Below, in pieces: positions 3,113 to 20,586 of a stretch of DNA of 20,586 nucleotides. Both the position numbers and the translations under genes were made by a program. The notes under the pieces were generated by a model. That model had not been told where the DNA came from, made no database searches, and was given only the letters and a program-made list of their open reading frames with translations. Each line of letters opens with the position of its first letter. Positions within the stretch are counted from its first letter, which is position 1. Location of the stretch: positions 1 to 20,586 of the IMG/VR virus record IMGVR_UViG_3300022752_000474. One strand, given 5' to 3'. The stretch comes from a virus.

Positions 3113-5164
3113 ATGGCGATGCGCTACCCCGGTGGGCTAATTGCCCCCACGCCTGTCAATGCGAATTATCCATCCGGCGTTTGGACGCCAAGTCAGTCTT
3201 TGCCGTACCAGCAGCAAAATGTCTGGACGAGGGATCAGTATTGGCCCTATACCACCCTGCTGCTTCAAGGCAACGGGACAAACGGAGCGCAAAACAATAC
3301 CTTCCTAGACTCTTCAAGCAACACCTTCAGTATTACCCGAAATGGGAACACCACCCAAGGCTCGTTCACGCCTTATGAAGCTAACGGGTATTGGAGTAAT
3401 TATTTTGATGGGAGTGGGGATTATTTAACTGCATCAGCAAACAGCGCATTTGCGTTTGGCACTGGCGACCTTACCGTCGAGTTTTGGGTTTACACTTTAG
3501 CCACTCCCGGAGTAGTGGCTGGTATTTACGACGTTGGTACTACAAACACATCAGGCCGATTTGTAATCGATTATTACTCGGACCAGAAGGTCAAGATAGA
3601 AACAGCAGGATCGACGTTAGTTTCATCTAGCACAAATTTGCCACTTAATTCATGGGTTCATATTGCCGCTGTTCGCAGTGGCACAACCATGTCGTTGTAT
3701 CAAAACGGAGTGCGGGTCGGTACCGCAACAAACTCAACAAACTTTTCCCAAAACTCGCCGTGGATTGGGCAATCACTTGATGGGTATGCTTTTACTGGAT
3801 ACATAAGCAATGTGCGTGTTGTAAAAGGCACGGCAGTCTACGACCCAACTCAGGCTTCGATCACAGTCCCAACCGCACCTCTCACCAACATCACAAACAC
3901 CTCGCTGCTGACCTGCCAAAGCAACAGATTCATCGACAATTCAGCTTCCCCGTTAACCATCACAGTCAACGGCAACCCAAGCGTCCAAGCCTTCCAACCT
4001 TTCCCCGGTGCAACCACATGGAGTGCAAGCGTACTAGGTGGGAGTGGGTACTTTGATGGGAATGGGGATTATTTAACTGGGACGTTGACAGGACAGACGC
4101 CGGGAACGGGGGACTTAACCGTTGAATTTTGGGTGTACCGGACAGCTACACAAGCCTGCACTGTTTTTAACACAAGATCTGGTGATACGACAGATGGCAT
4201 TGGTATTGAAATAGGTTCTACTAATGCTTTAGCAGTAACTTTTGCTGGGGACACGTTTATTGTTACTGCCAACGGTTCAGTTCCGTTAAACTCATGGAGT
4301 CATATAGCAGTTGTAAGATCTTCGGGTAATTTTCAAGCATATATAAATGGTGTTGCACAAGTTTCACCCGTAACAAGAACTAATAACTTCACTTCAACTA
4401 ATTTAACTATTGGATATTTTTCTGTTAATGCGCCATATGGAACGACTTATTTAACGGGATACTTATCTTGTTTAAGGTACACAAAAACAGCGGTATACAC
4501 AAGTAATTTTACACCTCCAACAAGTCCACCAACGAATATTGCAAACACAGTTCTCCTCCTCAACTTCACCAACGCTGGAATCTTTGACAGCGCGATGATG
4601 AACGACTTGGAAACGGCAGGAAATGCTCAGGTCAGCACCAGCATAGTGAAGTACGGCACGGGGAGTATGTACTTTGATGGGAGTGGGGATTGGTTAATCA
4701 TTCCGTATAGTCAGAACATCAACTTCGGCACGGGCAACTTCACGATTGAAGGGTGGTTTTACCTTAGTTCATTTGCCAATCAATACTATGTGTTGGGCGG
4801 GACTTGGACAACAGGCTCTAGCGATGAGTGGTTGGTTCAAATAGAAAATAACGGAACCATGAGGTTTTTGACCTCTGCCGGGACTTCTTTCTACACCGCA
4901 GGAATTACCACTGGGACTTGGTATCACTTTGCCGCTGTACGCAACGGATCAACCGTAACGCTGTATGTGAATGGGTCAAGCGTAGGCAGTTACACAAACT
5001 CCAATTCGATTGGATCAACTTCCAAGACTCTCTATATTGGCGTTCAAAATAACGGTGCTGCTTGGCCTTGGAACGGCTACATCGACGACCTGCGAATCAC
5101 TAAAGGCGTGGCCCGTTACATCTCTACTTTCACGCCGCCCCCTGCGCGTATGCCCCAACAATAA
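3113..5164 (+). CDS. Three-module LamG (concanavalin A-like) protein, putative tail fibre/adhesin
   Basis: 683-residue protein, AGAGG ahead of the ATG. Three LamG-type modules begin at residues about 97, 313 and 520, each opening with YFDG(S/N)GD(Y/W)L, followed by a GTG(D/N)(L/F)T(V/I)E(F/G)W strand, a conserved (S/T)W-H-AAVR-type strand, an LY-NG-V turn and a closing GY(I/L)S-(V/L)R or GYIDDLRITKG-ARY element. This is the pattern of LamG_3 jelly-roll domains, which bind carbohydrates or host surfaces. Before the first module is an N-terminal attachment segment with LLLQGNGTNGAQNNTF and a DSSSNTFSITRNGNTTQG linker. Modules are joined by linkers such as CQSNRFIDNSASP and LLNFTNAGIFD. No signal peptide or membrane helix is seen. 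Its position in the tail region supports a receptor-binding fibre. It is closely related to the next gene. Confidence 0.85.
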   Translation: MAMRYPGGLIAPTPVNANYPSGVWTPSQSLPYQQQNVWTRDQYWPYTTLLLQGNGTNGAQNNTFLDSSSNTFSITRNGNTTQGSFTPYEANGYWSNYFDGSGDYLTASANSAFAFGTGDLTVEFWVYTLATPGVVAGIYDVGTTNTSGRFVIDYYSDQKVKIETAGSTLVSSSTNLPLNSWVHIAAVRSGTTMSLYQNGVRVGTATNSTNFSQNSPWIGQSLDGYAFTGYISNVRVVKGTAVYDPTQASITVPTAPLTNITNTSLLTCQSNRFIDNSASPLTITVNGNPSVQAFQPFPGATTWSASVLGGSGYFDGNGDYLTGTLTGQTPGTGDLTVEFWVYRTATQACTVFNTRSGDTTDGIGIEIGSTNALAVTFAGDTFIVTANGSVPLNSWSHIAVVRSSGNFQAYINGVAQVSPVTRTNNFTSTNLTIGYFSVNAPYGTTYLTGYLSCLRYTKTAVYTSNFTPPTSPPTNIANTVLLLNFTNAGIFDSAMMNDLETAGNAQVSTSIVKYGTGSMYFDGSGDWLIIPYSQNINFGTGNFTIEGWFYLSSFANQYYVLGGTWTTGSSDEWLVQIENNGTMRFLTSAGTSFYTAGITTGTWYHFAAVRNGSTVTLYVNGSSVGSYTNSNSIGSTSKTLYIGVQNNGAAWPWNGYIDDLRITKGVARYISTFTPPPARMPQQ

Positions 5165-7447
5165 GGGAACAACATGAGTCAACGGTATATTGGCGGACTG
5201 ATCTACAACCCTCCGGGCGGATTCTCGGGGTACTTTGATGGGTCGGGGGATTACCTGACTCTTGCAAGCAGTTCTAATCTTGCACTTGGTTCAGGTGATT
5301 TTACGCTTGAGTTTTGGGTTTATTCCTTAAACAACACTTCAGGTTCTGATAAGGTCATATTTGACCAAGCAGCCTCAAACACTCTTTTAATATACATTGA
5401 AAGCACAGATGGTTCTTTTGTTGTCAGAGACTATGGCGTTTCAAACATATTCTCAATACCAAGTTTTCCAGTAAATTTTTGGACTCATGTCGCCTTGTCT
5501 CGGGCAAGTAATACTCTTCGCCTTTTTATTAATGGCGCACAAGTCGGATCGACAAGCAACAGCACAAACCTCACCCAAAACGGAACGACTATTGGCAGAT
5601 TCAACTCCGGTGGGGAAGAGTTTAACGGCTATATCTCCAATCTTCGCCTCGTAAAAGGAACGGCTGTCTACACCTCGGCCTTCAATCCTCCATCGGGTCA
5701 ACTACAAGCCGTCACCAACACCCAACTGCTGACCTGTGCCTACAGCACCTTCAGGGACGGATCAAACAACGGCTTTGCTATCACGGTCAACGGCAACACG
5801 GTAGTCAGTACCCAGAATCCTTTCCCGCTCACGACACTACCCAACCCTGCACTTGGCAATCAGGGCAACGGCATCTACACCATGAGCCAGTATCAGTCGT
5901 TATTGAGCCAAAACCTCTGGCCTTCGATTGATCCCTACTTTAAAAACGTCACGCTCTTGCTGCATGGCAACGGCACCAACGGCGCACAAAACAATAGCTT
6001 CGTCGATTCTAGTACCAACAACTTCAGTATCACCCGCAACGGCGACACCACCCAAGGCACCTTCAGCCCATTCAGCCAGACGGGGTGGAGCAATTATTTT
6101 GACGGGAGTTCGCAGTATTTGAGTGTTGCTGATAGCGCTGATTTTGATTTTGGAGGTGGAGATTTTACAGTTGAATATTGGGAATACAGAACTGCCGCAA
6201 AAAACGATGTTACACCAATTAACAGAAGAATAAACATATCTGGATCAAACAATTCAATTTGGATGTTTGGATATGAAGTCTCCGGTAATTTATCTGGCTA
6301 TTTTAATAATGGCGCAGGAACTATTTATTTAAATATTAGCATGGGCGCAGCCCTGTACAATTCTTGGAACCATTATGCAATTGTAAGGTCTGGCAATACC
6401 GTCACTATTTACCGGAACGGCACTAATATTCAAACGGGGTCACTAACTCAAACACTACCTGCCGCAGGACAACCTATAAGCATAGGAAGAATGCAATCCG
6501 GTTATGATTTTAATGGTTATATATCAAATGTGCGTTTAGTAAAAGGCGTAGCTGTTTACACAGGCAACTTTACGTTACCAACATCACCGCTTACTGCAAC
6601 ACAGTCTGCTGGAACAAACATAGCCGCAATTACTGGCACACAAACCTCCCTCCTCACTTGCCAATCCAACCGCTTTATCGACAACAGCGCGTCTCCAAAG
6701 ACCATCACAGTCAACGGCAACGTCTCCGTTCAAGCCTTCTCACCCTTCCAACCAACAGCGGCATACAGCGCGTCAACAAACGGCGGCAGCGGGTACTTTG
6801 ATGGGAGTGGGGATTATTTGAGTTTTTCAGCGGTTTCAGTTGGAACAAGTGCCTTTACATTTGAATGTTGGGTGTACACGAGTGCGGCTAATACATTACA
6901 ACTTACTTTTGGCGCTCCTAGTATAAACCCCACTGGAGGGTTGTCAATACAATTGCTATCTAATGGCACAACTGTACAACTAGATTCTTATACCGTAAGC
7001 AATCAGCAATTTACAATTCCTACTAGAACCGCTCAGTCTTGGAATCATCTGGCTGTTTGCCGTGACGGATCAAATAATTGCACGGTATTTTGGAACGGAA
7101 CAAGATCCTCAACGGGGTCAGTAACAAATACAACAAACTATTCAGGTGGTTTTGGCAATATTGGTGCAAATGGCGGTTTTGAAGCTTTTACAGGGTATAT
7201 TTCTGGGGCAAGAGCTGTGATTGGCTCTTCAGTTTATGACCCCACGCAATCTTCAATTACAGTCCCAACTTCTCCTCCCACTGCTGTAAGTAATACCAAA
7301 CTCCTCCTCAACTTTACCAACGCAGGCATCATCGACAACACCGCCAAGAACGATCTAGTCACGGTAGGCAACGCGCAGATCAGCACGGCACAGAGCAAGT
7401 TTGGTGGCGCGTCGATGTACTTTGATGGTAGCGGGGACTTTGTACAG
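3401..7447 (+). repeat. Seven dispersed near-identical 30-base blocks at LamG module starts
   Basis: The block encoding YFDGSGDYL and its variants recurs at 3401-3430, 4049-4078, 4670-4699, 5231-5260, 6095-6124, 6794-6823 and 7418-7447. Most copies share TTTGATGGGAGTGGGGAT or differ by a few bases, while the module cores that follow are strongly diverged. Linker DNA also repeats between the two genes, for example near 3268-3365 and 5967-6063, and near 5074-5120 and 7831-7880. These blocks lie inside coding sequence and could serve as homologous recombination points for swapping modules. Confidence 0.85.
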
Positions 7448-7921
7448 ACGTTTGCTTCAAACCAAGACCTTGCTTTTAGGACAGGGAATTTTACTGTCGA
7501 GTGTTGGGTATATTTCAATACAAGCGGACAGCACGGCATTTTGCAGCTTTCAACCAATCCCGGTGGGTTCAACACTTCCAATACAAATTCTATTGCGATG
7601 CAAAGAAGTGGAACGGGGCAATGGGAAATTTACGCAAAAAGCACCAACCCGTCAGCGAGTGCAACCATTAATCAAAGCCAGTGGTATCACCTTGCCATTG
7701 TCAGGAATGGAACTACAACAACTTTTTATGTAGATGGCGTATCAACAATCACGGTGACAAGTGACTCTACTGACTACACCGGAACGTACATTGGGTTAGG
7801 CGCTATTTATTCCACTGGTGTCCCTCTCAACGGCTACATCGACGACCTCCGCATCACTAAAGGCATAGCCCGATACACCACAAACTTCACCCCGCAACGT
7901 TCACAATGGCAGGATCAATGA
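5174..7921 (+). CDS. Four-module LamG protein, putative tail fibre/adhesin
   Basis: 915-residue protein with AAGGG ahead of the ATG. Four LamG-type modules start at residues about 20, 308, 541 and 749. Modules 2, 3 and 4 are preceded by the same linkers as modules 1, 2 and 3 of the upstream protein (GNGTNGAQNNSF; CQSNRFIDNSASPKTITVNGN; LLLNFTNAGIID), so the two genes are collinear paralogues, and this one has an additional N-terminal LamG unit beginning almost at the start codon. Each module has the FT-E-WV strand, a W-H-A strand, an NG turn and the closing GYIS or GYIDDLRITKG element. It is likely secreted only as part of virions, since it has no signal peptide. The stop TGA overlaps the next start (ATGA at 7918). 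A carbohydrate or cell-surface ligand is inferred from the fold family. Confidence 0.85.
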   Translation: MSQRYIGGLIYNPPGGFSGYFDGSGDYLTLASSSNLALGSGDFTLEFWVYSLNNTSGSDKVIFDQAASNTLLIYIESTDGSFVVRDYGVSNIFSIPSFPVNFWTHVALSRASNTLRLFINGAQVGSTSNSTNLTQNGTTIGRFNSGGEEFNGYISNLRLVKGTAVYTSAFNPPSGQLQAVTNTQLLTCAYSTFRDGSNNGFAITVNGNTVVSTQNPFPLTTLPNPALGNQGNGIYTMSQYQSLLSQNLWPSIDPYFKNVTLLLHGNGTNGAQNNSFVDSSTNNFSITRNGDTTQGTFSPFSQTGWSNYFDGSSQYLSVADSADFDFGGGDFTVEYWEYRTAAKNDVTPINRRINISGSNNSIWMFGYEVSGNLSGYFNNGAGTIYLNISMGAALYNSWNHYAIVRSGNTVTIYRNGTNIQTGSLTQTLPAAGQPISIGRMQSGYDFNGYISNVRLVKGVAVYTGNFTLPTSPLTATQSAGTNIAAITGTQTSLLTCQSNRFIDNSASPKTITVNGNVSVQAFSPFQPTAAYSASTNGGSGYFDGSGDYLSFSAVSVGTSAFTFECWVYTSAANTLQLTFGAPSINPTGGLSIQLLSNGTTVQLDSYTVSNQQFTIPTRTAQSWNHLAVCRDGSNNCTVFWNGTRSSTGSVTNTTNYSGGFGNIGANGGFEAFTGYISGARAVIGSSVYDPTQSSITVPTSPPTAVSNTKLLLNFTNAGIIDNTAKNDLVTVGNAQISTAQSKFGGASMYFDGSGDFVQTFASNQDLAFRTGNFTVECWVYFNTSGQHGILQLSTNPGGFNTSNTNSIAMQRSGTGQWEIYAKSTNPSASATINQSQWYHLAIVRNGTTTTFYVDGVSTITVTSDSTDYTGTYIGLGAIYSTGVPLNGYIDDLRITKGIARYTTNFTPQRSQWQDQ

Positions 7922-8250: not shown

Positions 8251-8366
8251 TGGATGACAAGACCCACAAGCTAGCGGCTCTTAAGGCGCAAGCCAAGATC
8301 AATCGTGGGTGTTGGTGCATCTATTTTCTTGGAAGGCGAGAAAATCAGATTACCGCAAAGGGGTAA
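8250..8366 (+). CDS. Putative 38-residue small protein
   Basis: A short open frame begins at ATG 8250, sharing its A with the upstream stop (TAATG), and ends at TAA 8364-8366, two bases before the holin ATG. The product begins MDDKTHKLAALKAQAKINRG, then CWCIYFLGRRENQITAKG. It has a basic amphipathic helix followed by a short Cys/Trp-containing segment that is too short for a membrane span. It exactly fills the space between two tightly packed genes, which is the main argument that it is real. There is no strong separate ribosome-binding site, so expression would depend on translational coupling. Function unknown; it could be chance, but a 119-base empty gap would be exceptional in this window. 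Confidence 0.5.
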   Translation: MDDKTHKLAALKAQAKINRGCWCIYFLGRRENQITAKG

Positions 8367-8368
8367 GC

Positions 8369-8854
8369 ATGTTTGATTTACTTTCAGGCGGTTTACTTGG
8401 CTCTATCTTTGGTGGGTTGTTCAGGCTCGCACCTGAAATCCTTAAATTCCTAGATAAAGCCAACGAACGCAAACATGAATTAAATATGTTTCAGCTCCAA
8501 ACGGATTTAGAGAAACTCAGGGGCGAGTTTAAAGTTGAAGAAAAGTATGTTGATTACAGCATTCAACAATTAGATACCATTAAAGAGGCGTTCCGTGAAC
8601 AATCAGAAACTGCAAAATCAGCAGGATGGTTCGTATCTGCAATCTCGGCACTTGTTCGTCCGGGGATTACATGGTGCTTGTTTGGTATGTATGCAGCCGT
8701 TAAAGCTTGCGCTATCTATATGGCGCTCTTATCGGATGCACCGTGGTACGAAGTTTTAAAAGCCAACTGGAACGAAAACGATTTTGGTCTTTTTACGATG
8801 GTGCTTACGTTTTGGTTTGTTGGGCGTAGTATAGAGAAATATCAAAAGTCGTGA
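8369..8854 (+). CDS. Holin, three-transmembrane (GTA_holin_3TM-like) type
   Basis: 161-residue protein. An upstream GTG at 8309 would add 20 residues, but the ATG at 8369 has a strong AAGGGG five bases upstream (8358-8363) and gives a clean N-terminus. Residues about 4-25 form a glycine-rich hydrophobic segment (LSGGLLGSIFGGLFRLAP), residues about 26-85 a charged helical domain, and residues about 88-160 two membrane segments around SAISALVRPGITWCLFGMYA and FGLFTMVLTFWFVGRSIEKY. The conserved LVRP-T turn before the second hydrophobic stretch and the FWF-GRS end are hallmarks I associate with the three-TM holin family. It would form the inner-membrane lesion that releases or activates the lysozyme encoded next. 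The stop overlaps the lysozyme GTG start (GTGA). Confidence 0.8.
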   Translation: MFDLLSGGLLGSIFGGLFRLAPEILKFLDKANERKHELNMFQLQTDLEKLRGEFKVEEKYVDYSIQQLDTIKEAFREQSETAKSAGWFVSAISALVRPGITWCLFGMYAAVKACAIYMALLSDAPWYEVLKANWNENDFGLFTMVLTFWFVGRSIEKYQKS

Positions 8855-9321
8855 ATGAAGAAGCGAAGAAGTTAGCCAGAGATGTACTCATCAAGCCATT
8901 TGAAGGACTGGCTAGGCTTTTGCCTGACGGATACGTAACATCTTATCCTGATCCGGGAACCAAAGGACACCCTTGGACTATAGGCTGGGGAGCAACCGGT
9001 CCAGATATTCAGCCGGGAACCATTTGGACGATTGAGCAGTGCGAAGATGCGCTTGACCATCACATCACTTACTTTTATGTAGGACTTTGCAAACTTAGTC
9101 CGACATTTCCAAATGCCTTCCCCCGACGCATTGCCGCCGTTACAAGCTGGGCATACAATTGTGGCTTAGGGAACTATCGGGTTTCTACGTTTAAACGGCG
9201 TGTTGATGCGGGGGATTGGGATGGTGCAGCCGATCAATGTATGTTGTGGAATAAAGCTGCTGGAAGAGTTCTCCCCGGACTCACTCGCCGCCGTGCGGCA
9301 GAAGCTGCCTTGATGAGGTGA
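8851..9321 (+). CDS. Endolysin, GH24 (T4/P22-type) lysozyme
   Basis: 156-residue peptidoglycan hydrolase cleaving the MurNAc-GlcNAc glycosidic bond. GTG start at 8851, overlapping the holin stop by four bases. The catalytic Glu is E18 in KPFEG, followed by YPDPGTKGHPWTIGWGATG containing D34 and T43, equivalent to the Glu-Asp-Thr triad of T4 lysozyme. Later, AAVTSWAYNCGLGNYRVST is the conserved core helix, and LPGLTRRRAAEAALM is the family's C-terminal G-L-RR-AE-L motif. Length is typical of the family. No N-terminal signal or SAR segment is visible, so export should depend on the holin next to it. The DPGTKGHPW insertion in the active-site hairpin is longer than in T4. No spanin gene is seen nearby. 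Confidence 0.93.
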   Translation: MNEEAKKLARDVLIKPFEGLARLLPDGYVTSYPDPGTKGHPWTIGWGATGPDIQPGTIWTIEQCEDALDHHITYFYVGLCKLSPTFPNAFPRRIAAVTSWAYNCGLGNYRVSTFKRRVDAGDWDGAADQCMLWNKAAGRVLPGLTRRRAAEAALMR

Positions 9322-12019: not shown

Positions 12020-13084
12020 GTGACCACCTCCGCTAAAACGTTGACTCCTGAGCAAACGGCTGCATTGCAAAAACTGCAATCTTTTCAGCAGCAACAAGCA
12101 CTGGATCAATATTTGTCTAATAGAGCTACGCAGTACGGCATAACTCCTAAAGGTGCAAAGGCTGATACGGGCTGGACTGCGGGGGAAACGCTTGCTAATC
12201 CGTTTGCGGGGTTGACTGATTTTGGTAAGAAAACAGTACAGGTATCCCAAGGGGGCGGGGAAGAAGCCCCAACAGAAGAAGAGCAAGCTAAAACCGCTAG
12301 TGACTTGTTTCGTGAGAAGTTTAGTGAACAGTTAGGACATAAAACATCTTTTGTTAAAGCCTACAAAAAAGATGAAAAGGGTAACACTACTGAAGTTAAC
12401 ATGGATGAATTAACTCCGGGGGAACTTAATTCTGGAAACGTTGTTATATACATGGGCGGTAAAACGGGCGGTACTGAGCGCGAGCGCATGGCGCAAGCCT
12501 ATATCCCCAAGGGCGATAAACTTATTCCTGTAGGTGACCCATCCTATTACAAAGGTGAGCATCCTGATGCCCAAAATGTAGCTAATGCGCTAAAGGTTGC
12601 GTCTATTGCTTCTCTTCCTTTGGGCGGTATTGGTGGGTTATTAGGAAATATATCGGGGCAACTGGGGGGATTTTTAGGTGGTAGTGCGCTAGCAAACGTT
12701 GGAGCTAACGCTCTTGTATCCGGTGCATTACAAGGTGGTCTAGGAACTTTAACAGGGCAAAGTTTTGGTAAAGGATTTAGGTCAGGCGCAGGGTCTAGTC
12801 TTATTGGGTCAGGTGTTGATGCGCTAGGAAATATGACTGGGTTAAATCAATCTTTAGGGCAACTTGCAGCCCCTGTTAAATCAATTGCTACATCTGGTAT
12901 TTCTTCACTGTTAACAGGTCGCCCGTTTGATTTAGGACAAGCAGCTAAAAATGCGGCTATTAATTATGGTTTAAATCAAGCTGGGCAAAATATGGGGTTT
13001 GATCCTAAACAACAAGCTGCCTTTACAAAATTTTTAAATTTTGCTGCGCCGATGATTTCGGCTAGACGCAAGCCGGGAGGTTGA
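12020..13084 (+). CDS. Putative internal virion / DNA-ejection protein, glycine-rich
   Basis: 354-residue protein with a GTG start two bases after the upstream stop; no ATG gives a similarly full product, and the ribosome-binding site is weak, so coupling is likely. Residues 1-36 are Gln-rich and helical (EQTAALQKLQSFQQQQALDQ). Residues about 75-130 are charged. Residues about 190-275 are a long Gly/Ala/Leu region with many GG, GxxxG and AxxxG steps (SLPLGGIGGLLGNISGQLGG, ALVSGALQGGLGTLTGQ), the composition expected for a membrane-active ejection protein. The end is basic (SARRKPGG). It heads a run of four further large proteins of similar character, consistent with an ejection cassette. No named family is recognised. 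Confidence 0.65.
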   Translation: MTTSAKTLTPEQTAALQKLQSFQQQQALDQYLSNRATQYGITPKGAKADTGWTAGETLANPFAGLTDFGKKTVQVSQGGGEEAPTEEEQAKTASDLFREKFSEQLGHKTSFVKAYKKDEKGNTTEVNMDELTPGELNSGNVVIYMGGKTGGTERERMAQAYIPKGDKLIPVGDPSYYKGEHPDAQNVANALKVASIASLPLGGIGGLLGNISGQLGGFLGGSALANVGANALVSGALQGGLGTLTGQSFGKGFRSGAGSSLIGSGVDALGNMTGLNQSLGQLAAPVKSIATSGISSLLTGRPFDLGQAAKNAAINYGLNQAGQNMGFDPKQQAAFTKFLNFAAPMISARRKPGG

Positions 13085-13085
13085 A

Positions 13086-13925
13086 ATGAGTGACGGAAAT
13101 AATGATAATTTTTATGATATTAGATCTTTAAATGATCCTTTGACTGCGTATCTTACTCAACAAAACCCTAATGTTTTTACAAACGTAAATAATCCTGCAA
13201 TTTCATTTTTAGACACAGCATTTTTGGGGGATCCTAATGATATTCGAATGCCCCCTTCTGTTTTAATGGAGTTTAAAGATCTTTATACCCCTGCAGAACT
13301 TACTTCAATATTAAACGACTACGAAACACAAACTGGTGATAAAGAAGGTGCGGCGTTACTTAAAACTTTGTTTGGGACAGATACGACGCTTGCAGACACA
13401 GCAATAAAAGAAGCCGCAAAAATGCCAGTTGGAGAAGGAGATACTTTTTCCGCCGGAAACGAAAGTTTTTTAGACAAACTCCTATCCAACAAAAATCTTC
13501 TCCAAGCTGGACTTGGTGGGCTAGGTGCATTAGCTTCATATAAATCTGCAAAAGACGCACAGAAACAAGCAGCAGGGGTTAGCCTTAAAAAAAATGCCCC
13601 CGTTACTGCTACGCGCACTGCTGGTAAAGGTACAAGGTATGCTGCTGACGGTGGCTTGATGGGGTTAGCCAGAGGTAGGTATCTTGATGGACACAGCGAT
13701 GGTATGGCTGATAGAGTACCGGCACAGATTGATAACCGCAGACCCGCTGCGTTAAGTGATGGGGAATTTGTAATCCCTGCTGATGTTGTTAGCCACCTTG
13801 GGAATGGTAATTCAAACGCTGGTGCAAAACGGCTTTACAAAATGATGGACGATATTCGTGCCGCACGAACAGGCAACCCCAAACAGGGCAAACAAATTAA
13901 CCCTGATAAATTTATGCCGAGGTAA
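13086..13925 (+). CDS. Internal virion protein with conserved C-terminal DGMADRVPA / DGEFVIPADVV module
   Basis: 279-residue protein with GGGAGG ahead of the ATG. The N-terminal 110 residues are acidic and apparently helical. Residues about 135-165 contain a GLGGLGALASYKSAKDAQ helix. Residues about 185-197 have AADGGLMGLARGRY, and the last 80 residues form a compact conserved block: DGHSDGMADRVPAQID, then RRPAALSDGEFVIPADVVSH, then NSNAGAKRLYKMMDDIRAAR and GNPKQGKQINPDKFMP. From memory this block recurs, highly conserved, in ejection-type proteins of diverse aquatic phages. Its biochemical role is unknown to me. The GG motif is shared with the next two gene products, suggesting they act in one complex. 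Confidence 0.75.
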   Translation: MSDGNNDNFYDIRSLNDPLTAYLTQQNPNVFTNVNNPAISFLDTAFLGDPNDIRMPPSVLMEFKDLYTPAELTSILNDYETQTGDKEGAALLKTLFGTDTTLADTAIKEAAKMPVGEGDTFSAGNESFLDKLLSNKNLLQAGLGGLGALASYKSAKDAQKQAAGVSLKKNAPVTATRTAGKGTRYAADGGLMGLARGRYLDGHSDGMADRVPAQIDNRRPAALSDGEFVIPADVVSHLGNGNSNAGAKRLYKMMDDIRAARTGNPKQGKQINPDKFMPR

Positions 13926-13927
13926 TC

Positions 13928-15790
13928 ATGGCGACTATTTCTGGAAAAGAACTCAAAGCCCTTTATGAGCAGCTTGCTGCTCAAGGATATAACTACGCCG
14001 ATATTGTTGCGCTTGCTAAGCAATTTGACGTAACTGAGCAAGAGCTTAACGCTGCCCTCAAAGATCCCAACGCTCAGATTGGCTACGAAGAGCCAGACGA
14101 TAAAGAAAAAGCAGCGTTTGAAAATATTCAGAAAGATGTAAAAAGCAAACAAACCGAAAAGAAAATTGGCGCGGATGAACTAAAAAGATTGGTCGGGGAT
14201 GTCCAAAAAGCTGGTTATTCAATGGACGACATTTACAATCTTGCCTCACAGTATGATGTATCAAAGCAAGAAATTGATGCAGTTTTAGGTGGGGGTAAAG
14301 ATGCTATTGGTTACCGTGATCCTACCGTCCAAGAATTAGCACAGTTTCAAGCTATCCGTGAGGCTAATCCCACTGCATCTAAAGCAGCAGATGTTATTTT
14401 TGCAAAAAATCAAACGCGTTCTGAATTAGAAAAACTTTTGCCTGACCGCAAAATTACTGATGCTGATGTTGATTATTGGTATAACCAAGGTGGTGTAGGT
14501 GCAGTTCAAAAAGAATTTAAACCCGCACCGCCCCCAGCACAACAAGGCGCGACTGTGAGCCGACCGGGGTACGAAGCGCGTACTGGCACAGGTGTTGATG
14601 TATCAGGAGAGTCTGGCCTTCGGGAAGCCTACGGTGACTACGTAGAGCGTATGTTAGAAAGATCTTCGGCTGAAGCTGATGTGCCTTTTCAGGCATACAA
14701 AGGTATATCTCCTCTTGTTGAACAAGCACAAACAGGTCTTGCTAATCTCAAAACGCCGGGACAGTTTCTTCAAGGATCTAATCTAGCAACGGCTGCGGGT
14801 ATCGGTGCTTTGGGCTACGGACAATATAAGCCCACGCAGTTTATGACCGGAACGTTTGCTAACCCTATGCAAGGCACGCGTGGAGATATTATTAACTTTG
14901 CCGAAAAATATGCTGGTACTCCCGCCTCTGCACAGCAGATAGGTGCGCTTGATGCTTATCTTAAAGCTAATCCTAATACAAATTTTCAATCGGGTGTAAA
15001 TACGCTTTTAAATATACCTCCAACTGGTAAAGCATACGGCGGTGAGGTTGAAGGGTATCAAGAAGGTGGAGACGTAACTGAACCTATTAATGTAGGTGGG
15101 ACTAACCCAAATCTTCAGCCTATAAACTACGGTGGGCAAAACATTACCAACGTGCAAGCGTCTTACATGTCTCCTTATATGCAAGGAGCTATTGACCCTG
15201 CGCTTCGTGAAGCCAAACGTCAATCAGAAATACAAGGGCTGACTAACGCTGCTAGGTTTACACAAGCTGGCGCTTTTGGTGGAACCCGGAATGTACTTGC
15301 AGATGCAGAACGCCAACGTAACTTAGCCACTCAACTAGGTGATATTCAGGGTAAGGGTTTACAAGAAGCCTACACCCAAGGACTTGGACAGTTTAATGTT
15401 GAACAGAATCGTGGGTTAGAAGCACAAAAATTAGGTGAACAGTCTCGTCAGTTTGGTGCTGAACTTGGGCTTAAAGGTTTGCAAACAGGTATACAAGCAG
15501 GTCAAGCGCTTGGACAACTAGGCTATCAGCAAAGCGCATCTGATCTTGCAAGGCTTAGGCAGTTGTATGACACAGGCACAGGTGAACGCACATTTGACTA
15601 TAATGAATTTTTGCGTAGTGAAAAGTATCCGTATGAGAATTTGACGTTTATGAAAAATATGCTGCAAGGTTTACCCATACAGGCCGCACCAACGGGTATC
15701 GATCCATTGTCGCAAGCTTTGTCTGGTGGTATTTCCACTGTGTATTTAACAAATCTTTTAAGATCATTAGGCGGCGGGACAGGGGGTTAA
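13928..15790 (+). CDS. Putative DNA-ejection / internal virion protein with N-terminal tandem helical repeat
   Basis: 620-residue protein with GAGG ahead of the ATG. Residues 5-66 and 80-143 are a tandem repeat: AQGYNYADIVALAKQFDV / KAGYSMDDIYNLASQYDV, (V/S)..QE(L/I)(N/D)A(A/V)L and (Q/A)IGY(E/R)(E/D)P. Residues about 368-383 contain YGGEVEGYQEGGDV. The C-terminal half (from about 390) has INYGGQNITNVQASYMSPYM, ALREAKRQSEIQGL and AARFTQAGAFGGTRNVLADA, followed by long Gln/Gly/Leu-rich helices. The AAR-QAGAFGG-R pattern is, from memory, a hallmark of podovirus ejection proteins. The role is likely to be part of an envelope-spanning channel ejected with the DNA. Soluble, no signal peptide. Confidence 0.75.
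   Translation: MATISGKELKALYEQLAAQGYNYADIVALAKQFDVTEQELNAALKDPNAQIGYEEPDDKEKAAFENIQKDVKSKQTEKKIGADELKRLVGDVQKAGYSMDDIYNLASQYDVSKQEIDAVLGGGKDAIGYRDPTVQELAQFQAIREANPTASKAADVIFAKNQTRSELEKLLPDRKITDADVDYWYNQGGVGAVQKEFKPAPPPAQQGATVSRPGYEARTGTGVDVSGESGLREAYGDYVERMLERSSAEADVPFQAYKGISPLVEQAQTGLANLKTPGQFLQGSNLATAAGIGALGYGQYKPTQFMTGTFANPMQGTRGDIINFAEKYAGTPASAQQIGALDAYLKANPNTNFQSGVNTLLNIPPTGKAYGGEVEGYQEGGDVTEPINVGGTNPNLQPINYGGQNITNVQASYMSPYMQGAIDPALREAKRQSEIQGLTNAARFTQAGAFGGTRNVLADAERQRNLATQLGDIQGKGLQEAYTQGLGQFNVEQNRGLEAQKLGEQSRQFGAELGLKGLQTGIQAGQALGQLGYQQSASDLARLRQLYDTGTGERTFDYNEFLRSEKYPYENLTFMKNMLQGLPIQAAPTGIDPLSQALSGGISTVYLTNLLRSLGGGTGG
13940..14356 (+). repeat. Protein-level tandem repeat in the 13928 gene
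   Basis: Two diverged copies of about 62 residues, offset by about 76 residues, share the GY..(A/D)DI..LA.Q(F/Y)DV...E(L/I).A.L and IGY..P patterns. At DNA level they are too diverged to be a recent duplication. Each copy looks like three short helices. Confidence 0.7.
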
Positions 15791-15793
15791 CAA

Positions 15794-17596
15794 ATGGCAC
15801 AGATTCCTTTTTCTCCTCCACAAGTTCAGGCAGCACTACAAAACCCTGTCCGGTTTCCTGACCAGCAACTTCAACAATATGCTCAACGTGGTAGCCCTAC
15901 AGGACAAGTCACGCCTCCTATGGCGCAGCAAGAAATGGCTACGAGAGGGCAAGAACGCCAAGCGTTTCAGCGTCAACAAGCCATGAGTCAAAACCCTGAA
16001 AACAGCCCAACAATCTTTCAACAGAAGGACATGCAAATTCAGCAAGCTATGCAAGCCTTGCAGCAAAAAGAGCAGCAGCTTGGGATGATGGGTGCTTTGA
16101 TGGCGAGAAAAGCACAAGATGTACAGGAACGAGAACAAGGGATTGCCACACTTCCCGTTCGTGAAGATATGTTTACTGCTATGAATGGCGGTATTGTGTT
16201 TCGTGGTGGTGGGCAAGTGCAGCGATTTAATGGACGAAAAGGCCCATCATTTATAGAAGGTATAAGCCCAGAATTTGGCGGTGTATCCTCAGATGTGCTT
16301 ATAGAAGACATATTTAGAGCAGAAAAAAAGAAAAAGGAAAAAGATAAAGTGCAATATGAATTTCTACAAGAAGCCGCGCCTTCTGTAGCAAAACGTTTTG
16401 CAGAAGAAAACCCCCATGTTTTAGAAACTATTCCCCGCGTACCCAGCACCGTAGGTGAACCTGAACCCACTATCTACAAACCATCAACAAATAAAAAAGA
16501 AGACAGAAAATCGTCAAGTACTACTGGTGAAACTCGTGCTCCTTCTTTAGCTAATTTAACCACTGGGATGTACGATAAGTATATGAGCCGTATGTCTCCC
16601 TATATGGGAACTTCTCCTGAAGTTAGCGAATCTCGTTCGGGTATTAGGGGTGCGCTGGGTCGGATTTCAAATGAAGCTGAAAAGTCTAAACCGCTTGAAG
16701 GTAGGGCGCGGGAAGAAATGGAAACGGCTGAACGCGAACGCCTCGCCAAAGAATATGGCGAATATACTGCGGGTCGTACAAGCAGAAGGGAACGTGCTGC
16801 CGAAGCATTGCGTGGACAGAAACTCGAACTTATTGACTACCTCGGAGCAATGGCTGAAGGTGGTCCCGGTAAAACATTAGCTGAAACTTTATCTCGTGCA
16901 GTTCCCGGCACAACAAAACTTCGTGCAGACCAAAAAGCCCGAGAAATGGCAGCAGCTAAATTTTTAGCTGAGGCCGAAGAGCTTGATGCAAAAGCTGATT
17001 TGGCTGAACGTCGAGGCCAAACAATTGCGGCGCGTCAACTAACCGAGCAAGCAGACCAACGTCGCGCTCGCTCATTTGAAATTGTTAGGGGTGCAGAGGC
17101 AACAAACATTCAGGGGTTGGGTGCGCTTGCTAGCTCTGCTGAAGCTGAGCAAAAACGTATTGCCGATATAGCCAGTACTGGGGCCGCAGCAGAACTAAAA
17201 GGTAATTTGGAAGTCCAGTTAAAACAAGCTGAAATGAATTTCCGTGCAGCTTTGGAAGCAAATAGACCTACAGACATGATGCGAAATGCCCAGTTTATTG
17301 CTAATGCTACGGGTAAACCTATGGCGGAGGTTGTTAATAGCTTACTAACCAAGGGTAGGTCTTCCGTTAAAACTGCTGATCCAGCCAAAGCACTAGAAAC
17401 AATAAATGCTTTACCATTTAATAACCCAATGCTGGTTTCCCGCGCAGCATTGACCCAAGATGAAATGTTAAAAGTACAAAGAAGTAAAAACGAAAACGAG
17501 TTGCCCCCAGCTATAGTAAAAAAATTAACTCGTGCAAAAGAAGCTATGTATCAACAAATGGTAACAGGCGCGGCAGACGATTCGCTCTTTGATTGA
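15794..17596 (+). CDS. Putative internal virion / DNA-ejection protein, Gln- and Ala/Glu-rich
   Basis: 600-residue protein with AGGGGG ahead of the ATG. The N-terminus (PFSPPQVQAALQNPVRFPDQ, then QLQQYAQRGSP) resembles, from memory, the start of many aquatic-phage ejection proteins. Residues about 40-115 are Gln/Met-rich helices. Residues about 130-150 contain NGGIVFRGGGQVQRFNG, the same kind of GG motif as in the two preceding products. Residues about 280-500 are strongly helical with many Ala, Glu, Arg and Lys (EMETAERERLAKEYGEYTAG, KFLAEAEELDAKADLAERRG), likely coiled coil. The C-terminal 100 residues include PFNNPMLVSRAALTQDEM and end LFD. No enzyme motif is seen. It probably lines or assembles the ejection conduit with its neighbours. 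Confidence 0.7.
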   Translation: MAQIPFSPPQVQAALQNPVRFPDQQLQQYAQRGSPTGQVTPPMAQQEMATRGQERQAFQRQQAMSQNPENSPTIFQQKDMQIQQAMQALQQKEQQLGMMGALMARKAQDVQEREQGIATLPVREDMFTAMNGGIVFRGGGQVQRFNGRKGPSFIEGISPEFGGVSSDVLIEDIFRAEKKKKEKDKVQYEFLQEAAPSVAKRFAEENPHVLETIPRVPSTVGEPEPTIYKPSTNKKEDRKSSSTTGETRAPSLANLTTGMYDKYMSRMSPYMGTSPEVSESRSGIRGALGRISNEAEKSKPLEGRAREEMETAERERLAKEYGEYTAGRTSRRERAAEALRGQKLELIDYLGAMAEGGPGKTLAETLSRAVPGTTKLRADQKAREMAAAKFLAEAEELDAKADLAERRGQTIAARQLTEQADQRRARSFEIVRGAEATNIQGLGALASSAEAEQKRIADIASTGAAAELKGNLEVQLKQAEMNFRAALEANRPTDMMRNAQFIANATGKPMAEVVNSLLTKGRSSVKTADPAKALETINALPFNNPMLVSRAALTQDEMLKVQRSKNENELPPAIVKKLTRAKEAMYQQMVTGAADDSLFD

Positions 17597-17604
17597 GGCT
17601 GAAC

Positions 17605-20586
17605 ATGCCAGTTATAAATATCCCTCCTTACGGACCGATTAGGTTTTCTGATTCCCTATCTAAGGAAGAACTTGCAGAAAAAATAAACCGAATAAAAAGT
17701 AAAGTCGGAGAAAGTGAATATAAATTTGACCCTCGTGAAGAGTTATCGTTTTTAGAAAAATTAAAAGGCGGCGCTAAACGGGCACTTTCTGGTATAGGCA
17801 GTCTTGTCACGGATGTTGTCCCTGCTATTGGGGGTAGCTTACTTGGGTTTGAAGATTACGCCCGTGAGCAGATGGCAGAGGCAGCGCAAAAACGAGCAGC
17901 CGCTGAACTTGAATCCCCAACTGCTTATAGGAAATTAAGTGATGTTAGAGGAATTGGTGACGTACCGGGATTCCTTGCGGAAACATTGGGTGAAGGTGCC
18001 GTTGACATTGCCTCTTTACTTGTCCCCGGTGGTGTTGGTTCCGTTGTAGGTCGCCGTCTCGCACAACGTGGCGCAGCCGAAGCCGGTGAACAAATTGCAA
18101 GTCGTATTGCTAGACGCGGTGTTCCAGAAGGACCGATTGTACCAGACGTACTTAAAGGTTTACAGGAAACCGCTACGCGTAGAGCTGCAACGTCGTTAGG
18201 TCAAGCAGGTGCAGACCTTGGGTTTAAAACAGGTCTGCGTGGTGGTGCGTATGGACTTGCTTCAGGTGAGATTTTTCAAAGTGTTGAAGAAGAAACTGGC
18301 AAGCTTGAACCGGGATTAGCCCTTGCACTGGGTGTGCCGTTTGCCGCACTGGACTCGCTACTCCCTGAAACCATAGCCAAGCAGCTCGGTGCAACCGGTA
18401 AGGCAGTCTTAACTAAAGAAATGCTAGAGCGTTCAACGCTCCCTGAAGCAAAAAGTCTTGCTGCTCGCCTTGGTACAGCAATCCCTGCGTTGGTTGCCAA
18501 AGAAGGTTTAACCGAAGCGGCGCAAGAAAACATATCAATCCTTGCCGAGCAGATTGCTGGCAGTAAAAAAGAATTTTTTGATCCTGAGAATGTTGACCGG
18601 ATGCTCATGGCAGGGGTCAAAGGCGGTATTGCAGGCGGTGTGTTTGGTGCTCCCGGTGCGGCAATCGAAGCGGTTAGAGATAAACGTGCGGATCAGGCAT
18701 TGATTGACGCAGAATTAGCGCGACGTGAAAAAGCTAAAACACCAGAAGAAAAAAAAGAAATTGAGCAACGTCTTTTGCTTTTAGGGTACGAACTACCCAC
18801 ACCTAAATTTGAAGGGCGTATTGAACCTACCCTTGCACTTCCACCTCCTCCACCGAAAGCTTTACCTAGACCTACCCCATTTACCCCTATTGTTACCGCA
18901 GATGGCACGGTTCTTTTTACTCGGCAAGAAGCTGCGTTATACGAAGCTAACGAACGCTTTAAACAAGAACAAGAAGCTAATCTTATAAAGGAAAAAGAAG
19001 AGGCTAAATTTCAAGGTAAATATGCCCCGCAACGAGCCGGAACACAGTTTGAGTTAACCGGTCCCGGTTTTGGTGTTCGTGCAGAATCTCTTTTTAATCA
19101 AGAAGGTAATCTTAACGAAGCTGCCCCTGAAATTACATCTGCACCTATCACCCAAGCGTTTTTAGCTGAAGCTGGTATAGGTAAAGGGTCTGCACCATAT
19201 AAACAATTTATAGATAAAGATCTTGCAGACCCGGAAGTTCGGGGGGAATTTAGAGCTTTTTTGCGTGAACGTGCAGAAAACCCAAGTCGTTCTAAACCCG
19301 TGCAAGAAAAAGCTAAAGCCGCAACCGATATTCTTGCTCGTATACCGTTTGCTCCTGCTGATCAGCTTTCGTTATACCTACCCACTGAAATAGGTGAAAA
19401 CCCCGTTGAACGTATGGTTCAAGAAGCGCGTGGTCGCGCCCGTCCAACAGGGCCGACTCGTGTGGGTGGGGTGCCTGAAAGTAACTTAACAGAACAGCAA
19501 ATGCGCGAACGTAATCTTGCAGATATACAACAAGAGCAAGACAGACAAGCGCGTGAACGTTTTGAAGCTGAACTTGCAGAAACCGATCTTCGCGTGCAAG
19601 CAAATCAAGCTCAACGTATCATCCAAGAACGAAACACTATACTTGACGATGTACTTGCTGACCCACAAATTGTAAATCAAAGAAAGCGTTTTTCTGCTGA
19701 ATTACGTCGTGCAGGGTATACCGATACCAATATATCTCCGGCAGAAGAAGCACGTATTGCACGGTTTAACGAATTAAAAGAAACTTTCCCGGATCTTGAT
19801 TCTCAGGAAGTCGCCGCTAGAGAGCGTGCTGAAGCGGAAGAACGTGCCGGTCTTAACGAACTTGAATCCCTTGTGCCAGAACGTAAACCAAAACAAGCCC
19901 CTACCCCTAAAAAGCGTACTCCCCCGGAGGCTACAAATGTTAATGAACTTGACGAGAGTAGAAGTGGAGAAGGCGTTCCAGTTCCTAGCAGATCCGGAGA
20001 GCGAGTACCCACCGTCGGAACTGAGCCACCTGTCGCCACTGGAGTGGAACGTGCTGAGCCAGCTACTGAGGCAACTGTACGAGGAGAGGAAGTTCCATCC
20101 GTTGCATTAGAAGAAAGCAAAGGCGCACGTATAGAACGTAAAGAAAGTTTCAGGGGGCGTACAACTCCTGATGTTGAGTATATTGTTTATGACCAAGAGG
20201 GTAATCGGTATAGGACGTTTAAAACCAAAAAAGAAGCTCAACAAGCTTTAGATATGTTGACTATGCCAAGGGAAGATTTCTTAAATAAATACCCTGATTT
20301 AAAAGCTAAAGTTGAAGAAATAGAGACTCGTAAAAAAGAAACAACTAAATCCGAGACTGAACCCAAAGTCGAAGCCGAAACAGAACCCAAAACCGAACCC
20401 AAAAAGGAAACCGCAAGTGCCGCTGCGCCCACCGAAACCAAGCAAGCAAAAAAAGAGGGAACAACAGAGGCTCCTAAAAGAGCAAAAGTGGCAGAACCCG
20501 CCACTGGAGAGTCAACCGAAACAGACCGCACCATGCGCGGTCAAATGGAAAAGGTAAAGACCGAACGTGAACAAAAACGAAAAGAA
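17605..20586 (+). CDS. Giant internal virion / DNA-ejection protein, 3' truncated by window edge
   Basis: Reads as one uninterrupted frame from ATG 17605 (GAGG upstream) to the window end, at least 994 codons. Residues about 60-85 contain a glycine/hydrophobic stretch (GIGSLVTDVVPAIGGSLLGF), and residues 115-150 contain PGFLAETLGEGAVDIASLLV followed by PGGVGSVVGRRLAQ. Residues about 295-355 hold KEGLTEAAQENISIL and VKGGIAGGVFGAPGAA, suggesting membrane-active helices. A Pro-rich linker follows near residues 410-430 (LALPPPPPKALPRP). Residues about 510-580 have AGIGKGSAPYKQFIDKDLAD, a motif I associate with phage internal proteins. Residues about 625-765 are charged coiled-coil. Residues 778-835 overlap a second gene in another frame and are low-complexity. 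From about residue 910 it is a Lys/Glu/Thr/Pro-rich tail that continues past the window. No catalytic motif was visible in the part present. Confidence 0.85.
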   Translation, partial: MPVINIPPYGPIRFSDSLSKEELAEKINRIKSKVGESEYKFDPREELSFLEKLKGGAKRALSGIGSLVTDVVPAIGGSLLGFEDYAREQMAEAAQKRAAAELESPTAYRKLSDVRGIGDVPGFLAETLGEGAVDIASLLVPGGVGSVVGRRLAQRGAAEAGEQIASRIARRGVPEGPIVPDVLKGLQETATRRAATSLGQAGADLGFKTGLRGGAYGLASGEIFQSVEEETGKLEPGLALALGVPFAALDSLLPETIAKQLGATGKAVLTKEMLERSTLPEAKSLAARLGTAIPALVAKEGLTEAAQENISILAEQIAGSKKEFFDPENVDRMLMAGVKGGIAGGVFGAPGAAIEAVRDKRADQALIDAELARREKAKTPEEKKEIEQRLLLLGYELPTPKFEGRIEPTLALPPPPPKALPRPTPFTPIVTADGTVLFTRQEAALYEANERFKQEQEANLIKEKEEAKFQGKYAPQRAGTQFELTGPGFGVRAESLFNQEGNLNEAAPEITSAPITQAFLAEAGIGKGSAPYKQFIDKDLADPEVRGEFRAFLRERAENPSRSKPVQEKAKAATDILARIPFAPADQLSLYLPTEIGENPVERMVQEARGRARPTGPTRVGGVPESNLTEQQMRERNLADIQQEQDRQARERFEAELAETDLRVQANQAQRIIQERNTILDDVLADPQIVNQRKRFSAELRRAGYTDTNISPAEEARIARFNELKETFPDLDSQEVAARERAEAEERAGLNELESLVPERKPKQAPTPKKRTPPEATNVNELDESRSGEGVPVPSRSGERVPTVGTEPPVATGVERAEPATEATVRGEEVPSVALEESKGARIERKESFRGRTTPDVEYIVYDQEGNRYRTFKTKKEAQQALDMLTMPREDFLNKYPDLKAKVEEIETRKKETTKSETEPKVEAETEPKTEPKKETASAAAPTETKQAKKEGTTEAPKRAKVAEPATGESTETDRTMRGQMEKVKTEREQKRKE
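19926..19930 (+). promoter_or_regulatory. Strong internal Shine-Dalgarno GGAGG for the nested gene
   Basis: GGAGG at 19926-19930 is followed by a six-base spacer (19931-19936) and ATG at 19937. The site lies inside the 17605 gene and is not needed by it. It is one of the clearest ribosome-binding sites in the window. Confidence 0.75.
19937..20110 (+). CDS. Nested 57-residue gene, out of frame inside the giant ejection-protein gene
   Basis: The frame is +1 relative to the enclosing gene; ATG 19937 (a second ATG at 19943), TAG at 20108-20110, preceded by a perfect GGAGG. The product starts MLMNLTRVEVEKAFQFLADP, then ESEYPPSELSHLSPLEWNVL, and ends SQLLRQLYEERKFHPLH. It reads as two amphipathic helices joined by an acidic/proline turn, with the LSHLSPLEW motif capping helix two. 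From memory, small phage proteins with this pattern (FL-DP---PP-L-HLS--EW--L--LL--L--E, ending PLH or similar) lie next to terminase genes in podovirus-like phages, so this is probably a conserved gene and not a chance frame. GC at third codon positions is 43 of 57 codons (75%), far above 4 of 20 and 6 of 20 in enclosing-frame codons at 19741-19800 and 20221-20280. The frame stays open 141 bases upstream, but no good ribosome site favours an earlier start. Function unknown; a DNA-packaging role is speculation. Confidence 0.75.
   Translation: MLMNLTRVEVEKAFQFLADPESEYPPSELSHLSPLEWNVLSQLLRQLYEERKFHPLH

Follow-up and report, generated by a model that had tools for sequence, protein, structure and literature searches.

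The locus raises the question of whether a short open reading frame (ORF) lying out of frame within a very large phage gene is a gene in its own right, and what its product might do. The stretch of DNA analyzed here, called the window, is a virus record of 20,586 bases. An earlier note on this DNA had claimed a complete 57-codon out-of-frame ORF within the gene beginning at 17605, with GGAGG six bases ahead of its ATG. Both claims were borne out. The stop-free translation of 19937-20107 gave 57 residues (MLMNLTRVEVEKAFQFLADPESEYPPSELSHLSPLEWNVLSQLLRQLYEERKFHPLH), and the TAG at 20108-20110 ends the frame. The features concerned are the following.

17605..20586, + strand: enclosing (outer) gene, encoding the N-terminal 994 aa of a large polyvalent-type protein; ORF from the ATG at 17605 that runs off the window end.
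19926..19930, + strand: Shine-Dalgarno (SD) sequence GGAGG, six bases 5' of the nested ATG; an SD is kept in 88 of 91 homologues.
19937..20110, + strand: nested gene of family A, with 57 codons and a TAG stop, read in the +1 frame of the enclosing gene; from the translation, homologues and codon-position test.
19938..20108, + strand: outer-frame codons over the nested gene, a low-complexity G/P/V/E-rich linker (NVNELDESRSGEGVPVPSRSGERVPTVGTEPPVATGVERAEPATEATVRGEEVPSVAL); from the outer-frame translation.

Homologues of the nested product were sought in IMG/VR. The first search retrieved 16 contigs with 51-95% identity, all carrying the ORF nested in one relative frame. When the most divergent of these was used as query, 110 relatives were found, 80 of which were kept, and further members were added via profile A2 and another divergent query. 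After collapsing, family A comprised 91 distinct nucleotide sequences, and thus homologues exist beyond identical sequence. In the window and in all 91 sequences, the nested ORF lies wholly within another same-strand ORF in a different frame. The frame relative to the large outer ORF is always the same (+1; 91/91), and outer-frame stops inside the nested ORF or within 60 bases of it are missing throughout (0/91). Indels preserve the nested frame, product lengths being 56-58 aa.

The question of whether homologues occur alone or nested received a uniform answer: all were nested. No free-standing homologue was found in IMG/VR (91 distinct sequences), INPHARED, GTDB species genomes, Pfam, PHROGs or NCBIfam, and each of 18 long contigs searched whole (46-67 kb) had a single family A copy without a free-standing second one. 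The nested product gave only noise against INPHARED (E ≥ 4) and only chance-level matches against Pfam, PHROGs, NCBIfam and PDB sequences. Two different queries scanned against GTDB genomes retrieved no relative. On these grounds, the earlier suggestion that the product resembles small proteins encoded separately near terminase genes is unsupported. Family A was also absent, by profile search, from isolated phages with related outer genes. Most loci were retrieved via the nested product, so that the collection cannot tell how often outer genes go without it. When the outer N-terminus alone (17605-18690) was used as query, four contigs were obtained, two of them previously unseen (L194 and L196). 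All four contained the nested gene (E<1e-24), in what is a small sample.

The start of the nested ORF has features of a translation start. An SD-led ATG (59 cases) or GTG (29 cases) was present in 88 of the 91 distinct homologues, compared with the same SD motifs at 10% of control ATG/GTG codons taken from the same +1 frame in the flanks. The three sequences without such a call are L121, where the contig end cuts it, L041, which has an AGGGGG-type SD outside the motif list, and L165 (around 6001), the sole distinct family A member without a recognizable start codon at the expected place. The mRNA in the 60 bases around the nested start was predicted to be less folded than around control starts (mean -8.5 vs. 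-13.9 kcal/mol, p about 2e-25, a value that overstates independence since the sequences are related). An in-frame stop was present at most 10 codons upstream of the nested start in 22 of 89 cases, in some of them directly before the ATG. The SD-led ATG or GTG and the unfolded start region indicate that the nested gene would have its own translation start.

Next to the start signals, selection on the two frames was analyzed with a codon-position test, in which 28 disjoint locus pairs were aligned in the outer frame and changes were counted by codon position. At outer positions 1/2/3, changes per site were.229/.191/.387 in the left flank,.192/.103/.051 in the nested zone and.314/.268/.446 in the right flank. 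Third positions are thus the most changeable in the flanks and the least changeable in the nested zone. The third-position rate in the zone relative to the flanks had a ratio of 0.12 (bootstrap 95% 0.095-0.151), an about eight-fold drop, with the same direction in 28/28 pairs. In 10-codon bins, the drop opens at the nested start and closes at the nested stop. The suppression of synonymous change in the enclosing frame at 19937-20110, on which the earlier note had let its proposal stand or fall, was therefore found. An omega-like ratio was about 0.13 for the nested frame; for the outer frame it rose from 0.16 and 0.22 in the flanks to 3.4 in the zone. These values point to purifying selection on the nested frame together with reduced synonymous change in the outer frame. 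Judged from the sequences, the nested ORF is very probably a real, translated, same-strand out-of-frame gene. The homologues and the codon-position test strongly support the earlier view of an embedded, conserved second gene that ordinary gene callers miss.

Three readings without an independently translated gene were weighed against this evidence. Long +1 ORFs do arise by chance in GC-biased linkers, and many unconserved ones were found; the ORF might accordingly be a chance one that stays open only because the outer frame is conserved. Here, however, conservation is weaker in the outer frame, with synonymous and nonsynonymous codon changes of 43:423 in the nested zone vs. 1461:2300 and 1219:2814 in the flanks. 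Since the 28 pairs agree and the ratio is 0.12, the codon-position test refutes this reading, which we regard as having a vanishingly small probability. Nucleotide conservation is higher over the zone than in its surroundings, as would also be expected of an RNA or DNA element (a packaging, processing or regulatory signal) conserved for reasons other than protein. Yet the changes follow the codon periodicity of the nested frame, in that nested position 3 (outer position 1) takes 55% of those in the zone, and a pure nucleotide element is therefore rejected. The low omega-like ratio of the nested frame, the coincidence of the constraint boundaries with the ORF, the frame-preserving indels and the weak folding of the start region argue in the same direction, and such an element is extremely improbable. 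Programmed +1 frameshifting, by which a shortened outer protein would end in residues from the nested frame, would fit the +1 position of the nested frame in all members. Against it, the constraint starts at the start codon, and an SD with ATG or GTG is kept in nearly all members. The upstream in-frame stops mean that frameshifting is not the route into the nested frame, and we hold it to be very unlikely.

The enclosing gene was characterized through its relatives. Their complete outer ORFs encode about 1,800-2,600 aa, and the distance from the outer start to the nested gene is 262-798 codons. Three of the four outer ORFs tested have Pfam domains (LPD39; LPD38 and ART-PolyVal; HATPase and LPD39); the fourth, L098, had no Pfam match. 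The window copy, which is cut before the polyvalent domains, had no Pfam match above cut-off. By the domains of the three complete relatives, the outer gene appears to encode a large polyvalent protein, a class that is described in Iyer et al. 2017 (PMC5512222) as deployed by phages in biological conflicts. Isolated phages share the C-terminal part of the outer protein at 22-30% identity, where it is annotated as DarB-like antirestriction protein, PLxRFG protein or methylase. As far as sequence comparison reaches, the nested gene is known only inside large phage genes of apparent polyvalent type, over a seemingly disordered linker. The outer protein may be delivered into the host with the phage DNA, as suggested by its class and its position among structural genes, and the label of ejection-protein gene, given in the earlier note, is plausible. 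Four consecutive large proteins without a PHROG match are encoded at 12020-17596, between the structural genes and the polyvalent gene.

Outer genes vary considerably along their length. Among 33 representatives, outer segments were recognizable (E<1e-4) in 19% (N1), 17% (N2), 42% (C1) and 43% (C2) of pairs, and segment C2 fell into two unlinked groups. The nested gene is common to all and the outer segments are variable; the locus is thus a mosaic in which the nested gene is the constant element.

The nested product was modeled with AF2, giving helices at residues 7-18, 27-31 and 34-53 (pLDDT 81). Family A products are acidic, with an average net charge of about -4. Fold searches with the model yielded no usable match, the top scores being E 1.9 in BFVD, E 4.3 in PDB and Z 3.1 in VIA. 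In the mechanism we propose, ribosomes would initiate internally on the mRNA of the polyvalent gene, and this initiation would yield an acidic helical-hairpin protein of ~57 aa. The arrangement may have originated in two ways. Either a linker of the outer gene was overprinted by the nested frame, or two genes on either side of a small gene were fused, the linker then being the small gene read in an alternative frame.

As to function, we tentatively suggest that the nested product is a small factor that is synthesized together with the polyvalent protein and serves as its partner or chaperone or in its assembly or loading. Among the functions considered, a partner role is the most likely because the nested gene never leaves the outer gene despite the domain shuffling around it. 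This suggestion derives from the close linkage of the two genes, a linkage that sharing the same sequence would itself maintain. A different function is conceivable for the same real gene: it could encode an independent effector acting early or late, such as a peptide for host takeover or counter-defense, that is parked in the polyvalent gene because polyvalent proteins serve in conflict with the host. The small, acidic, helical nature of the protein would suit an effector, as would the conflict-related class of the outer genes described in PMC5512222. An effector gene would, however, be expected to stand alone somewhere, and none does among the 91 distinct sequences, INPHARED or the GTDB genomes. 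Moreover, the nested gene is nearly universal in its group, being present in all four relatives retrieved by the outer gene, unlike typical counter-defense genes, which are patchy. An effector role is considered somewhat less likely than the partner role, of which it is the main rival.

To see whether other polyvalent genes contain such ORFs, those of isolated phages were scanned for SD-led +1 ORFs, and two more families were found. Family B (~130 aa, range 120-138 aa) was detected in six isolated phages and in five IMG/VR contigs, always nested, and has no separate gene entry in the annotations shown. Family C (63 aa) was detected in BA3, vB_ValP_FGH and three IMG/VR records, one of which matches BA3 in length. 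The nested ORFs are located as follows.

L185:2217-2603, +1 frame: family B, Skulduggery (MF042361 33577-33963).
L178:2514-2900, +1 frame: family B, Parlo.
L206:5001-5387, +1 frame: family B, ZX1.
L207:5001-5360, +1 frame: family B, 45A6.
L180:2580-2972, +1 frame: family B, D274.
L205:3178-3570, +1 frame: family B, 1.232.O.
L198:8001-8189: family C, vB_ValP_FGH, unannotated.
L182:2253-2441: family C, BA3, annotated as BA3_0004 with a start 47 codons upstream of the conserved part.
L211:1664-1849 (family C) and 3986-4351 (family B): two nested genes in one outer gene, each with an SD.

Between Parlo and ZX1, changes at outer positions 1/2/3 numbered 86/74/156 and 71/66/147 in the flanks and 56/31/29 in the family B zone. 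Such an inverted codon-position pattern was seen in several family B pairs; the 45A6 comparisons were too diverged to show it. For BA3 and vB_ValP_FGH, the counts were 61/49/150 on the left and 17/12/14 in the family C zone. Fold searches with family B gave nothing usable. Profile comparison of A, B and C detected no relationship, and they are therefore treated as unrelated families. In L211, the family C homologue lies upstream of the family B gene, showing that one outer gene can hold two. We give about even weight to the broader proposal that polyvalent genes serve generally as hosts of out-of-frame nested genes. It would comprise at least three families without detectable relationship, in the +1 frame over linkers and sometimes two per gene, that encode dedicated partners and were fixed by ancient fusions across intervening small genes.

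Further candidates were noted during the scan. The Aeromonas phage phiARM81mr has a 64-aa SD-led nested ORF (L181:840-1031), which matched the family C profile weakly after L211 had been added (E 0.0015). Parlo (L178:465-677) and ZX1 (L206:3336-3545) have candidate SD-led nested ORFs of ~70 aa upstream of family B, with 28% mutual identity. BA3_0003 (L182:5205-5549) was unsupported as a nested gene and was missing from the SD-led candidates.

Nested phage genes are known singly. In phage lambda, Rz1 lies within Rz; these embedded spanins are functional partners of a similar size class, and separate, overlapping and embedded arrangements exist. The family A locus is similar in that a same-strand gene with its own ribosome-binding site lies in a different frame wholly inside another. 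It differs in that the outer gene is more than thirty times longer, the nested gene is deep inside it and overlies a linker, and the searches revealed no free-standing form. Identity with an embedded spanin was rejected: inspection of the family A alignment by eye revealed neither a lipobox cysteine nor a stretch resembling a signal peptide, and the nested gene lies outside the lysis cassette of the window (8309-9321).

The domains in the relatives' enclosing genes (LPD38, LPD39 and ART-PolyVal) are those of the large polyvalent proteins in PMC5512222, a paper in which no mention of out-of-frame genes inside polyvalent genes was found. Overprinted viral genes in general, the topic of a review (PMC8227390), likewise produce a second protein from an alternative frame over a disordered-looking region; here, in contrast, conservation is stronger for the nested gene, which is constant across loci whose outer protein is mosaic. 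The literature searched contained no report of nested genes inside polyvalent genes, an absence that is not proof. Outside its IMG/VR members, family A is absent from every database and family library searched here. As a kind, the out-of-frame nested gene is known; the setting in polyvalent genes and the recurrence there appear to be new.

The nested gene is widespread in uncultured phages and is more strongly conserved than the giant gene that encloses it. Core genes can lie hidden over the disordered linkers of polyvalent proteins, where callers barring long same-strand overlaps would discard them. Families B and C occur in isolated phages (one of them, Skulduggery, on the laboratory strain Pseudomonas fluorescens SBW25), making the idea directly testable, and a systematic search of polyvalent genes suggests itself.

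Elsewhere in the window, the protein encoded at 1451-2023 has repeats of the type ALTGVNATGNVGSV. Two adjacent, related-looking large proteins (3113-5164 and 5174-7921) contain repeated units of the FDGSGDYLT/GYISNVRLVKG type, and the second of them matches several virion and baseplate PHROGs.
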